Origin: Campylobacteraceae bacterium
GTDB lineage: Bacteria > Campylobacterota > Campylobacteria > Campylobacterales > Sulfurovaceae
Length of the DNA stretch: 33,703 bases
Reading direction: 5' to 3'
Assembly: GCA_027080995.1 (NCBI GenBank)
Contig: JALWNT010000109.1
Location: 1 to 33,703 of the forward strand
A program made the position numbers and the translations under genes. This document shows, piece after piece, positions 29,549 through 33,703 of this stretch (the stretch's first letter is position 1; every line of letters starts with the position of its first letter). The notes under the pieces were generated by a model. It did not search any database and had not been told where the DNA came from. It saw nothing but the letters and a program-made list of their open reading frames with translations.

Positions 29549-31336
29549 TCAATGATCGTAGGGAAGAAAGAGGGTGAAAACAGCTCCCTCTTTCTTGTTT
29601 TCGACCGTGACACTTCCTCCGAATTTCTCTTCGATGATCGTTTTGACCATATAAAGTCCGATTCCCGTTCCTTGTTCGGCTTTGGTACTGAAATAGGGTT
29701 CGAAAATTTTCTCCAAATGTTCCGGCGGGATCCCCCCGGCATTGTCGCAGACGCGGATGCGGATCATCTCTTCTTCCCGACGGACATCGATGCGGATACG
29801 GGGATCGGATACGTGGCGTTCCGTAAGAGCGTCGCGGGCGTTGAGAATGAGATTGAGGAAAATTTGGGCGAACTGATTTTGCATTCCGTGAAGTTCGACG
29901 GGGGCCTCTTCACGGTAGTCGACGACGATGTTTTTGTGGCGCAGATCGTATCCGACGATCTCCAGTACCTTTTCGTAAGCTTTTCGGACGGTGAAATCCT
30001 CCGTGTCGGTCGCCGGTTTGTAGAAGTTGCGGAAAGTGTCGATCGTCTCGGACATGAAAAAGATCTGCTCCTTGGCACCGGAGAGCATCGACTCGAGCCG
30101 CTTGTCGTCAAGACGGCCGGTACGCCCCAACGCTTTGATGTTTTGGAGGATCAGACTCAAGCGGGTGAGCGGATGGCGCCACTGATGGGCGATGTTGCCG
30201 ATCATCTCTCCCAGTTCGGCCAAGCGGGCTTGGTGGATCAAAAGACGGTCTTTTCGGGCGTTTTCGAGTGTCTTCTCTCGGACCCGCGTCTCGAGAGTGT
30301 GGGCGAACTCTTCGAGTTCCTGACGCTGGCGTGCGACGAGCTCGAACATCCGCTCCGTCGGTCGGGTCAGCAGCCAGGAGAGGGGCAGAGCCAGCAGGAT
30401 CATCAAAAGCAGCATAAATCCCGCAGCTTGATAATCCGCCCGCTCAAGCGTCAGTGCGGTCCCGGGTCGCAGGGTATAAGCGACGTAAAGCAGACGGGTC
30501 CCCATCGGCATCGCTTTGACGTAGAGGCGTCGGTCGGCCCGAAGGTATTCATCTCCCGCTTTCCTCGGCAGACGGTCGGCGGGAAGGGGGAGGAGTTCCG
30601 TGACTTTGAGGGGGCGGAAATCGCGGTCGTAGAACTTCCCTCCGGCGTAGACGATGTAGCCGTCGCGGTCGAAGATCGTCGTTTGAAAAACGGGTGAACT
30701 CCCGAAGAGCTGGATGATCTTTTTGGCGAAAGTGTTGATGGTCAGAACGCCTTGGAATTTTCCGTGGAAATAGATCGGTGTGGAGAGGCGGAAGACGGGG
30801 ACGATGGGACGGACCACTCGGCCGTGTTCGATGTTGTAATCGATCTTGGAGGTATGAATCGCCCCTTCGGGGAGCTTGGCGCTTTCTCGGAAGTAGTACC
30901 GGCCGGATTTGTCCTGGAGTTTCGCTGCTTTGTAGGGGTAGCCTTCGGGGCGATCCCGGTCGAAGCGGAGACGCTCTTGGCCGTCGGGTCCGAGATAGCG
31001 CAACTGCATATAATCGTTGTGCTCGAGCATGATCGTCAAAAAGAGAAATTCCGCCGCATTGTGTGTCCGCGGGTTCGCCACGTAGCCGACGAAGTAGGGA
31101 TTGTGGGCGATGGCAAGAAGGCTGCGGGAGAGATCGTCAAGGTAGAGATTGAGAAAGCGTTCTTTGTTGGCGGCTTCGAGGGTCACTTCGGAGCGGAACT
31201 TCTCCCGCTCCTTTTTGTCGATGAGCCAATGGGTGAAAAAGTAGAAACTCAGCATCAAAACGATCCCGTAGACGAAGAAACTCAACGCAAGGATGGTCGA
31301 AAAGCGGCGTCGGCTCAGCGGGCGAGGTTCAGGCAT
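29549..31336 (-). CDS. Sensor histidine kinase with Cache-like periplasmic domain
   Basis: A 595-residue membrane kinase. Helices at about 14-34 and 306-324 enclose a 270-residue periplasmic sensor with a dCache-type look (FFLNLYLDDLSRSLLAIA region, then RYYFRESAKLPEG and YFHGKFQGVLTI). A short coiled coil leads to the dimerisation domain with the phospho-acceptor His384 in NIAHQWRHPL. The catalytic domain has N box LNLILNARDAL (495-505), G1 DNAGGIP (531-537), F box FEPYFSTK (545-552) and G2 GTGIGLYMVK (556-565). All catalytic motifs are intact. The ligand is unknown. The gene overlaps the response regulator gene by eight bases and ends the redox operon. Confidence 0.93.
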   Translation of the reverse strand: MPEPRPLSRRRFSTILALSFFVYGIVLMLSFYFFTHWLIDKKEREKFRSEVTLEAANKERFLNLYLDDLSRSLLAIAHNPYFVGYVANPRTHNAAEFLFLTIMLEHNDYMQLRYLGPDGQERLRFDRDRPEGYPYKAAKLQDKSGRYYFRESAKLPEGAIHTSKIDYNIEHGRVVRPIVPVFRLSTPIYFHGKFQGVLTINTFAKKIIQLFGSSPVFQTTIFDRDGYIVYAGGKFYDRDFRPLKVTELLPLPADRLPRKAGDEYLRADRRLYVKAMPMGTRLLYVAYTLRPGTALTLERADYQAAGFMLLLMILLALPLSWLLTRPTERMFELVARQRQELEEFAHTLETRVREKTLENARKDRLLIHQARLAELGEMIGNIAHQWRHPLTRLSLILQNIKALGRTGRLDDKRLESMLSGAKEQIFFMSETIDTFRNFYKPATDTEDFTVRKAYEKVLEIVGYDLRHKNIVVDYREEAPVELHGMQNQFAQIFLNLILNARDALTERHVSDPRIRIDVRREEEMIRIRVCDNAGGIPPEHLEKIFEPYFSTKAEQGTGIGLYMVKTIIEEKFGGSVTVENKKEGAVFTLFLPYDH

Positions 31337-31979
31337 GCGGGATCCGGTAGCCTTCGCCCCGTAGATTTTCGATGACGTTTTCTTGCAGTTTGTCCCGGAG
31401 CTTTTTCATCGTGGTGCGCAGGGTGTTGTCGCAGACGTCCCGGTCATCCCAAAGATAAGTTTTGAGGCTCTCTTTGCTGACGATATGACCGCGGTGTTTG
31501 AGAAGCAGATAGAGCAGACGCCGTTCTTTGCGCCCGAGAGGGACTTCGTCCTCGCCTTCGTAGAGGCGTTCGTTTTTCATATCGAAGCGGTAGCGTTCAC
31601 CGAGGGGGAGGGTGCGTTCACCGTGGCCTTTGACCAAATGTTCGATACGCACCTCCAGCTCCTCCAGATCGAAGGGTTTGCGGACATAATCGTTGCAGCC
31701 GCTGCGGTAGGCTTCTTTGAGGGTTTGCAGATCGCTCATCGCGGTGATGAAGATCGCGGGTGTCTCGAGCGAAAGTTCTCGAAACGTACGCAAAACCTCC
31801 AGGCCGCTGAGTCCGGGAGTGTTGATGTCAAGAAGCAGCAGATCGTAGCAGGCGGGATCGGCGGTTTGGATCAAGCTCTCACCGTTGTCGTAGAGATCGA
31901 CCCGGTGGTCGAAGAGTTCGAAATAGTCCCGGATCTGTTCAGCGATGACGGGGTCATCTTCCAGCAGCAGCAGTTTCAT
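31329..31979 (-). CDS. OmpR-family response regulator
   Basis: A 216-residue two-domain regulator. The receiver has the acidic pair Glu7-Asp8-Asp9, the phosphorylated Asp51 (LLLLDINTPG), Thr79 and Lys101 (VRKPFDL). The C-terminal winged helix (about 125-216) ends with the typical TTMKKLRDKLQ and GEGYRIPHA. It should bind DNA when phosphorylated by the adjacent kinase. ATG at 31979 is chosen because GGAGGAG lies a few bases upstream; a GTG four codons earlier would place that site inside the gene. It overlaps the exported-protein gene by 26 bases. Confidence 0.93.
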   Translation of the reverse strand: MKLLLLEDDPVIAEQIRDYFELFDHRVDLYDNGESLIQTADPACYDLLLLDINTPGLSGLEVLRTFRELSLETPAIFITAMSDLQTLKEAYRSGCNDYVRKPFDLEELEVRIEHLVKGHGERTLPLGERYRFDMKNERLYEGEDEVPLGRKERRLLYLLLKHRGHIVSKESLKTYLWDDRDVCDNTLRTTMKKLRDKLQENVIENLRGEGYRIPHA

Positions 31980-32586
31980 TGTCTCCTCCACAGTCGAGAT
32001 AGCGGTGTACCCAGGGGCTGTAGTCGGTGAGGATTACGTCACCGACGCTGGTCTTCAGCCCCGTGGCATCGTCCCGTACGCCGTAGATGCGCACAGAGAT
32101 CCCCAGGTAATGCCCTCGCCATCGGCGTCGGACCTCCTCGGGCAAAAGAATCATCCCGTAGGCGGGATCGTCGTAGTCGGCGAAGAGCTCTCCGAGTAGA
32201 TCGTTGTAGGTGTTGAAGGCTTCATTTTCGCTCAAGGGAGCGGGTTCGCGGAGGAGTATATGCAAAACACTCAACCCCTCTCCCGGATAAGCGACACGCC
32301 AGAGGCCGGGGCGTACGGGGTAGCTCCGCTTTCCGACACGATGCAGCGCATCAGGCAGTTCCCACCCGTCCGAGACGGGTCGCAGACCGTGTCGACGGAG
32401 CTGATCCGGCGTCGGAGGGAGAGAGAGTCCCGCTTCGGAGAAATACTCGTCGAGAAAGGAAGCAAGCTCATCCTCCGCCTCGGGAAAAGAGCGGGGAGGG
32501 TAGTCGTCCGGACAGACCGGCGCTGTATATCCTCGCACCCCGACATACGCAAGACAGAGCAGAAAGAGACGCCTTGAAAGTTTCAT
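31954..32586 (-). CDS. Exported protein of unknown function
   Basis: A 210-residue protein without a family I recognise. Residues 1-19 resemble a signal peptide (MKLSRRLFLLCLAYVGVRG). The mature part is acidic, with a possible helix (EDELASFLDEYFSEAG), aromatic-rich strands and two Cys residues (one near 25, one near 201) that could form a disulphide. No metal or haem motif is visible. The ATG is preferred over a TTG three codons upstream. It sits between the cytochrome and the response regulator with a five-base gap and a 26-base overlap, so it very likely works with them. It may be a periplasmic sensor partner for the kinase, but this is inference. Confidence 0.7.
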   Translation of the reverse strand: MKLSRRLFLLCLAYVGVRGYTAPVCPDDYPPRSFPEAEDELASFLDEYFSEAGLSLPPTPDQLRRHGLRPVSDGWELPDALHRVGKRSYPVRPGLWRVAYPGEGLSVLHILLREPAPLSENEAFNTYNDLLGELFADYDDPAYGMILLPEEVRRRWRGHYLGISVRIYGVRDDATGLKTSVGDVILTDYSPWVHRYLDCGGDNETAAAGR

Positions 32587-32591
32587 CCCGC

Positions 32592-32972
32592 TCAAAAACA
32601 GGTCGGAATGCTCTCGGAGTCGTTGGCGAACTCCTGGAGAAATTTGAGTAGACGGTCGTGTTCTCGAGCGAAGCGGGGACTTTTGAGGTAAGCGATAACC
32701 TGTGTTGTATTCGCTTCACCTTCGTGGAGTTCGATCAGCGCTTTGCCGTGGCGGTCGAGCATATATTTCCATTCCGACTGAGTGGCCATATTTCCGCCGA
32801 GTTTGCCCGCACCGTGGCAGGAGGAACACGCACGCAAATAGTACTGCTGTCCGAGCTTCTCTTGGACGACGTGTTGTCCCCGGGGGCGGGCCTGGGCGCT
32901 GACGATACTCAGAATCAGGAAGATTCCCGCGGCGAAAAAGAGCGTAAGCGGGGGACGGGATTTAGTGGGCAT
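32592..32972 (-). CDS. Small exported monohaem cytochrome c
   Basis: A 126-residue protein with a signal-type N-terminus (hydrophobic 9-25, cleavage probably after AQA) and one haem site, Cys49-S-S-Cys52-His53 (RACSSCHGAG). GGNM at 59-62 is too close to be a sure second axial ligand, and other Met residues are scarce, so the haem coordination is open. The mature domain is about 100 residues, small for class I cytochromes. The start MPTKSRPPL overlaps the thioredoxin-fold gene by 11 bases. It would move electrons in the periplasm; partner unknown. Confidence 0.82.
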   Translation of the reverse strand: MPTKSRPPLTLFFAAGIFLILSIVSAQARPRGQHVVQEKLGQQYYLRACSSCHGAGKLGGNMATQSEWKYMLDRHGKALIELHEGEANTTQVIAYLKSPRFAREHDRLLKFLQEFANDSESIPTCF

Positions 32973-33462
32973 TGTCGTGTCTCCTTCCGTATTTATTCCC
33001 GTAGAGTCGGTCGAAACGTTTGAGAGCTTCACGGCCCCAGCGGATCAATTCGTCGGCTTTCCAGTATCCGTAAATGATCATATGCTTTTTGCCTTTGCGA
33101 TAAAGTTTCTCTTCCCGAGGCCCCATAAAAACGAAAGCCGGTGTCATATTGACGATAAAACGCTCGGGTGCCTGGTCGGCGGTCTCCTCCTCGATGCTGT
33201 CGCTTCCGGTAGAAGTATCCAGGGTCAGCAGCACAAAATTCTTTTTGAAAAAGCGCTGAAGTTTGGGATCGGGGAAGACCTCTTCGATCATTTTGGGGCA
33301 GTAGAAACAGCGACGGGAGTGGAGAAAAAGAACGATCGGTTTTTTCTCTTTTTGGGCCAATTCTTCGGCATCTTCGAGATTCTGCATCCAGGGCAAACCG
33401 GCGGCGTGCAGTCCGATCGCCCACAGACAAATCAGCGGGAGTAATCTTTTCCATTTTTTCAT
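32962..33462 (-). CDS. Exported thioredoxin-fold protein with CFYC active site
   Basis: A 166-residue protein of the thioredoxin-like superfamily (thioredoxin_7/DUF255-like). Residues 1-20 are a signal peptide (KRLLPLICLWAIGLHA). The active site is Cys52-F-Y-Cys55 (SRRCFYCPKM), preceded by KPIVLFLHS and followed by the cis-Pro segment MTPAFVFMG near 118-126. It probably handles disulphides or delivers a reduced apocytochrome, which would suit the next gene's haem site. The start is supported by AAGGAG eight bases upstream. It is the first gene of the operon. Confidence 0.85.
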   Translation of the reverse strand: MKKWKRLLPLICLWAIGLHAAGLPWMQNLEDAEELAQKEKKPIVLFLHSRRCFYCPKMIEEVFPDPKLQRFFKKNFVLLTLDTSTGSDSIEEETADQAPERFIVNMTPAFVFMGPREEKLYRKGKKHMIIYGYWKADELIRWGREALKRFDRLYGNKYGRRHDNAH

Positions 33463-33530: not shown

Positions 33531-33591
33531 AAGAAAAGTCATTTAAATTCGGGTACGGCGCAAACGGCACTTTGGGGGCACTTTTTGCCTC

Positions 33592-33597
33592 TATCAT
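33592..33597 (+). promoter_or_regulatory. -10 element for the gene at the right edge
   Basis: TATCAT on the plus strand gives a predicted transcript start near 33604, just before the GAGGAG hairpin, and a leader of about 38 bases. Confidence 0.4.
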
Positions 33598-33605
33598 TGC
33601 AGGTA

Positions 33606-33639
33606 GAGGAGTTTCTCCTCGGAGCCTAGAAGGAGGAAA
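33606..33639 (+). promoter_or_regulatory. Leader with two competing hairpins around the ribosome site
   Basis: GAGGAG-TTT-CTCCTC (33606-33620) forms one hairpin. The same CTCCT can pair instead with the ribosome site AGGAGGAA (33631-33638), an eight-base helix with one G-U pair. The two are mutually exclusive, so the first hairpin would expose the site and the second would hide it. Confidence 0.35.
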
Positions 33640-33641
33640 AG

Positions 33642-33703
33642 ATGGTTGGAAAGTTGAAAATCGCCGCGATCACCGCGATCGCCGGAACCACGATGATGCT
33701 CTC
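33642..33703 (+). CDS. Start of a secreted or membrane protein, truncated by window end
   Basis: Only 20 codons are visible, reading MVGKLKIAAITAIAGTTMML. The two lysines followed by a run of Ala, Ile and Thr look like a signal peptide or membrane anchor. AAGGAGG lies five bases before the ATG, and a TATCAT box lies about 45 bases further up. It diverges from the redox operon. The family cannot be told. Confidence 0.6.
   Translation, partial: MVGKLKIAAITAIAGTTMML

Follow-up and report, generated by a model that had tools for sequence, protein, structure and literature searches.

In the nitrate ammonification pathway of Nautilia profundicola (reverse-HURM), which involves NapABGH, HaoA (NAMH_1280) and CycB/cM552 (NAMH_0559), growth on nitrate raises haoA, cycB/napC and napA transcripts 8.5-, 7.1- and 4.6-fold, respectively (PMC3701875). 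In the MccA/SirA sulfite reductase modules of Wolinella and Shewanella, a periplasmic multihaem cytochrome is accompanied by dedicated haem-attachment and thioredoxin-like genes (PMC6976685). The respiration regulators Nss and RacRS of Campylobacterota respond to nitrate, NO, N2O, or low oxygen with nitrate or trimethylamine N-oxide; a review of regulation in the phylum assigns nitrate responses to Nss proteins, described as transcription regulators and not as a two-component pair, and names RacRS, which represses fumarate use in response to an unknown signal, as the only related two-component system (PMC6682613). Here we analyze a 33,703-nucleotide stretch of a deep-sea-type Campylobacteraceae genome (assembly GCA_027080995.1; “the window”), which is the whole of contig JALWNT010000109.1, with emphasis on an operon encoding a thioredoxin-fold protein (TRX), a cytochrome c (CYTC), an exported protein (UNK), a response regulator (RR) and a histidine kinase (HK). 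We propose, with a probability of roughly 0.6, that the RR/HK pair activates a divergent gene for a 12-haem cytochrome c (MHC12) used in nitrogen-oxide respiration and that the operon supplies accessories for maturation and electron transfer.

Comparison with described systems

In N. profundicola, napA and the cM552 gene flank a same-clade RR/HK pair, haoA and the cM552 gene are each preceded by the same direct-repeat operator, and CcsBA and a thioredoxin-fold gene are nearby. Unlike in the reverse-HURM system, the target here is MHC12 rather than HaoA or cM552, the kinase has a PF21623 sensor, and UNK, TRX and CYTC are added. No HaoA homologue was matched at an E value of 1e-40 in this genome (G000) or in G025, which we take as Nitratifractor salsuginis E9I37-1 and which belongs to the window's genus. 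(G, L, C and f numbers are our handles for genomes, loci, contigs and families.)

The MHC12 module resembles those of MccA/SirA in combining a multihaem cytochrome with haem-attachment and thioredoxin-like genes, but unlike MccA/SirA, MHC12 has no relative of note among solved structures in a PDB sequence search. Its assignment as an octahaem sulfite reductase was rejected, as it has 12 ordinary CXXCH motifs and no CX15CH-type site, the long C..CH spans being neighboring CXXCH motifs. The best NCBIfam match (residues 232 to 670) is ExtM of selenite/tellurite reduction operons, at 239.7 bits against a cutoff of 800, and the wider ExtM-operon genes were not found beside MHC12. The RR/HK pair would share the role of respiration regulator with Nss and RacRS and is set apart from them by their descriptions only.

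A divergent cytochrome gene and its predicted operator

The five-gene operon is real and forms only half of a wider system that includes the divergent cytochrome gene. This gene was missed in the original prediction because the contig ends at 33703, 62 bases into it. The order of the five genes is repeated, again with overlaps, in JALWPZ010000180 (L013, from a Campylobacteraceae metagenome-assembled genome) and in N. salsuginis (L014). Their earlier treatment as one unit is supported. At both loci, MHC12, an exported cytochrome of 799 residues containing 12 CXXCH motifs, is encoded divergently from TRX and is followed by TRXB (a lipoprotein-type thioredoxin-fold protein), TRXC (a CPYC thioredoxin-fold protein) and CcsBA. 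Contig C16 of the same genome as the window carries, at its end, MHC12 residues 66 to 799 together with TRXB, TRXC and CcsBA, and the assembly break between it and the window (C109) therefore falls within MHC12.

PhoB/OmpR-type operators are 11-bp direct repeats that overlap the −35 region. The predicted MHC12 operator (Table 1) resembles them in having a period of 11 bp and in lying at a constant distance from the −10 box, while its half-site, GGCACTTT, differs from the Pho box. GCACTTT-N4-GCACTTT is common to the divergent regions of GC-rich and AT-rich genomes, and at 12 of 12 MHC12 promoters from three families exactly 7 nucleotides separate the second repeat from TANNAT (with one mismatch in the G187 site). 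A scan for exact matches in 200 genomes sampled from the order found a single site, located at MHC12, in this genome and in G025, G044, G058, G071, G084, G109, G121 and G143, and two sites, on duplicated contigs, in G028; the reversed pattern, used as a control, matched seven genomes in all. When the scan was relaxed for ten genomes with the MHC12 module, the perfect site occurred only at MHC12 in nine (including G373) and the one-mismatch site of G187 was also there; G071 and G109 have further one-mismatch sites elsewhere. Exact sites are enriched in genomes carrying the RR clade (17/26, versus 14/174 for the others; Fisher's test, 2e-10; within-family shuffle, 2e-4). RR has the receiver (PF00072, 84 bits) and winged-helix Trans_reg_C (PF00486, 63 bits) domains of OmpR/PhoB-type regulators, the adjoining gene encodes a histidine kinase (HATPase_c, 81 bits), and a direct-repeat operator is predicted, from sequence alone, at the target promoter. 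RR very probably activates MHC12.

Table 1. Features of the operon and the divergent region
Feature	Positions	Strand	Basis
HK, membrane histidine kinase, PF21623/dCache-type periplasmic sensor	29549..31336	-	Pfam
RR, OmpR/PhoB-type response regulator (REC + Trans_reg_C)	31329..31979	-	Pfam
UNK, 210-residue exported protein, new family, invariant C25 and C199	31954..32586	-	Sequence, no family match
CYTC, exported monohaem cytochrome c (CSSCH)	32592..32972	-	Pfam, scores just under curated cutoffs
TRX, exported thioredoxin-fold protein (CFYC, Thioredoxin_7)	32962..33462	-	Pfam
Operator GGCACTTTGGGGGCACTTT, 11-bp direct repeat, predicted RR site	33566..33584	+	Comparison of divergent regions
Predicted -10 box TATCAT of MHC12 promoter, 7 nucleotides past second repeat	33592..33597	+	TANNAT spacing
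MHC12, first 20 codons, cut by contig end	33642..33703	+	Plus-strand ATG at 33642; synteny

A GAGGAG-TTT-CTCCTC stem-loop is present at 33606-33620 in the predicted MHC12 leader, with GAGGAT/ATCCTC-like counterparts in L013 and L014. It was rejected as a structured element, folding no better than shuffled sequences in this genome (z, −0.58).

Regulator clade and proposed link to nitrogen oxides

The recognition helix DNTLRTxxKKLR is common to RRs of families f1, f8, f9, f12 and f15. Operator sites are also found in f15 (Nautiliaceae type), which includes G062, a genome taken as N. profundicola AmH, whose layout agrees with the published loci for NapABGH (NAMH_0556-53), CycB (0559) and HaoA (1280). 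RR-HK genes in this family lie beside napA, usually just ahead of the cM552 gene, and modABC-like genes are present in some genomes. The operator with the 7-nucleotide spacing precedes haoA at loci of five genomes (L219, L115, L116, L118 and, from f12, L157), the cM552 gene in six (L113, L116, L117, L159, L160 and L123; Cytochrom_NNT was tested with Pfam for L159) and napA in one (L166), and several of these sites have one mismatch. These are the three genes whose transcripts increase on nitrate in N. profundicola. One RR clade and one operator would control cytochrome targets that vary by lineage, i.e., HaoA, cM552 and NapA in Nautiliaceae-type genomes and the 12-haem cytochrome here.

Counting all types, MHC12 is present in 54 of the 200 genomes, and 46 of these 54 also match the cytochrome cd1 family PF02239, compared to 20 expected (Fisher's test, 9e-18; within-family shuffle, 0.002), a count that pools strong (∼400 bits) and weaker (∼180 to 210 bits) matches, that of Nitratifractor being of the weaker kind. 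MHC12 is rarely found with HAO (2/54 genomes). Incomplete genomes and kinship weaken all of these MHC12, cd1 and HAO counts. Within genus g14, HAO is present in G009, from which cd1, close-type MHC12, TRX and UNK are all missing; six relatives carry cd1, MHC12 and UNK and lack HAO. N. salsuginis respires nitrate to N2 (PMC3156401). A nitrogen-oxide role of the module is, on these grounds, fairly probable.

Conservation of the locus

The five-gene composition is lineage specific, but the divergent layout is conserved across three families: wherever contigs from f9 and f8 extend far enough, TRX and CYTC are again encoded divergently from MHC12. RR and HK genes also remain at the MHC12 locus in both families, on one side or the other, with RR-HK after TRXC in f9 and in G187 (f8) and RR after TRX-CYTC in G143 and G373 (f8). 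Strong TRX matches occur in 8 of the 200 genomes, all eight of which have close-type MHC12; a ninth genome (G041) has a partial match only. Separation of the genes in most relatives, which the original prediction took as evidence against a unit, was found for UNK only, while TRX, CYTC and RR/HK stay at the MHC12 locus. The same prediction suggested that the exported redox proteins might be the regulated output of the kinase; a redox protein is the probable output, but the main one would be the divergent 12-haem cytochrome, outside the operon. CYTC homologues elsewhere were considered as a functional clue, but their neighbors are housekeeping genes and nothing was learned.

UNK, a family of exported proteins

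UNK has no match in Pfam, NCBIfam or PHROGs and no convincing PDB relative, as judged by the profile searches that the original prediction had recommended; its failure to recognize a family therefore stands, no known unrelated family was matched, and UNK is, by sequence comparison, a new family. Two cysteines, located close to either end of the mature chain, are invariant among nine UNK sequences, which suggests a C25-C199 disulfide. The AlphaFold2 model is fair (pLDDT, 82), but a fold search against solved structures gave nothing over a Z of 3.6, with YbjN-, LpqN- and PsbP-like entries among the matches, which is too weak to name a fold, and profile matches to de novo TIM barrels were set aside as apparently compositional.

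UNK and close-type MHC12 are found together in 8 genomes, compared to 0.5 expected (within-family shuffle P, 0.009), and G373 has both in addition to these eight. Exceptions are G143, G187 and G121, with MHC12 but no detected UNK, and G097 (80% complete), with UNK but no detected MHC12. From this distribution, UNK is co-inherited with MHC12, though unlinked outside this lineage. In G373 (f8), UNK adjoins gatC. UNK homologues (∼25 to 28% identity) lie between purL and purH in f9 (L015 267-872, L018 3916-4521 and L020 6492-7115), an odd place for an exported protein.

Proposed mechanism and alternatives

We infer the following circuit from what is visible in the sequences, namely, the genes present, the operator and its spacing to the −10 box, the fact that the site is unique, the nap, hao and cycB operators of other genomes and co-occurrence with cd1; binding and activation by RR, the cue, the route of electrons and the functions of TRX, CYTC and UNK are predictions. 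HK would sense a periplasmic cue, most likely a nitrogen oxide or the resulting redox state, through its dCache-type domain and phosphorylate RR. RR would then bind the 11-bp direct repeat, in a position that overlaps −35, and from there activate the MHC12 promoter. The exported MHC12 would be matured by CcsBA and the thioredoxin-fold proteins encoded downstream, with TRX most likely maintaining apo-cytochrome, or other thiols of the periplasm, in the reduced state. CYTC most likely carries electrons to or from MHC12, UNK most likely helps in its assembly or is its partner, and the process served is most likely nitrogen-oxide respiration. A more specific version is possible but doubtful: MHC12 may be a new class of 12-haem nitrogen-oxide reductase or a dedicated relay for cd1-type nitrite respiration, under a nitrate-responsive OmpR-type system unnamed in the papers cited, with UNK as its dedicated assembly or partner factor. 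With this proposal, a loosely defined operon becomes a circuit that can be tested, with a named predicted operator relevant to N. profundicola and N. salsuginis.

Several observations weigh against a nitrogen-oxide circuit of this kind. The RRs group with only moderate support (90/93) and on long branches. Kinase sensors differ, PF21623 being present in this genome and f9 and none being recognized in f15 and f12, so that the cue may differ. Other napA-side sites in f15, including that of N. profundicola, lack the 7-nucleotide spacing, and the repeat may therefore act differently there. MHC12 homologues of ∼50% identity in other families have unrelated neighbors and no operator, and two of them lie beside multicopper oxidase/CopB genes. 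Eight MHC12 genomes have no cd1 match. Finally, the linking of C109 to C16 in this genome rests on synteny and is a weak point.

The wiring could be as proposed with MHC12 serving an acceptor or donor other than a nitrogen compound (sulfur species, metals or extracellular electron transfer); if the RR clade was rewired, the nap and hao targets of Nautiliaceae-type genomes would be uninformative on MHC12. That ExtM is the best named relative of MHC12, albeit far below the cutoff, would fit such a role, as would the different kinase sensors, a flavoprotein-like gene after TRXC in G373 and the copper-oxidase/CopB genes after MHC12 in two f18 genomes. We nevertheless consider it rather unlikely, given that MHC12 co-occurs with cd1 and nearly excludes HAO and that its operator is retained from nitrate-induced promoters. 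The recurrence of thioredoxin-fold proteins and CcsBA at RR/HK loci of f1, f9, f15 and f12, in changing company, could also indicate a redox or envelope-stress pair that governs cytochrome maturation (TRX and CcsBA), with MHC12 as one client. The single operator, however, is on the MHC12 side, 7 nucleotides from the −10 box, and elsewhere it is found at haoA, cM552 and napA, which are structural respiratory genes, making this explanation improbable. Least credible is that the shared transcript reflects small-genome compaction only, TRX, CYTC and UNK being functionally unrelated to the two-component pair. It is true that UNK lies apart from the locus in f8 and f9 and that CYTC-like genes stand alone in many genomes, but the confinement of strong TRX matches to genomes with close-type MHC12, the co-inheritance of UNK and the layout kept in three families make such a coincidence very hard to accept.

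Components of the operon

The close packing of five minus-strand genes reported earlier was confirmed and measured: TRX and CYTC overlap by 11 nucleotides, CYTC and UNK are separated by 5, UNK and RR overlap by 26 and RR and HK overlap by 8. The CFYC and CSSCH motifs, the REC and Trans_reg_C domains, and HATPase with a PF21623/Cache sensor were likewise recovered. Signal-peptide-like N termini are present on TRX, CYTC and UNK. TRX scores above the Pfam cutoff for Thioredoxin_7 but reaches only 37.5 bits against the NCBIfam DsbH equivalog cutoff of 190, and PF21623 outscores Cache as a name for the HK sensor domain. Pairwise nonsynonymous divergence (dN) is well under synonymous divergence (dS) for all five genes, UNK included (∼0.1 to 0.3 of dS where dS is unsaturated), and the five open reading frames are therefore real genes and not chance frames. 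UNK evolves fastest, with 49 to 58% identity compared to 75 to 83% for RR and HK.

MHC12 and other observations

MHC12, found in 54 of the 200 genomes of the order, has no solved structure or assigned family, and literature searches found no paper on it. An alignment of 21 full-length sequences from eight or so families shows that all 12 CXXCH motifs, 11 further histidines and a further cysteine (C608) are kept. If these histidines are distal ligands, at least one of the 12 haems would not be bis-histidine ligated, as in catalytic haems. The structure model (pLDDT, 39) was too poor for a fold search.

In G028, contigs C5 and C42 (L020, L021 and L069), which are nearly identical, both carry the MHC12 region, probably as an assembly duplicate. 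The gene after TRXC in G373 (L178 5827-7122) resembles flavocytochrome/sulfide-dehydrogenase-like flavoproteins, judged from the gene start only. In f18 (Nitratiruptor type), multicopper oxidase and CopB-like genes follow the MHC12 relative at L072 11079-13478 and L073 5073-7469 (Pfam was run on L072). The direct repeats between napA and modA-like or RR genes that lack a 7-nucleotide-spaced −10 box are at L113 6319, L115 7295, L119 6596 and L123 6200. In G009, L179 255-9348 encodes two multihaem cytochromes that are distant relatives of MHC12, together with a membrane protein, an Fe-S protein and a large molybdopterin-type oxidoreductase, as judged from sequence starts only.

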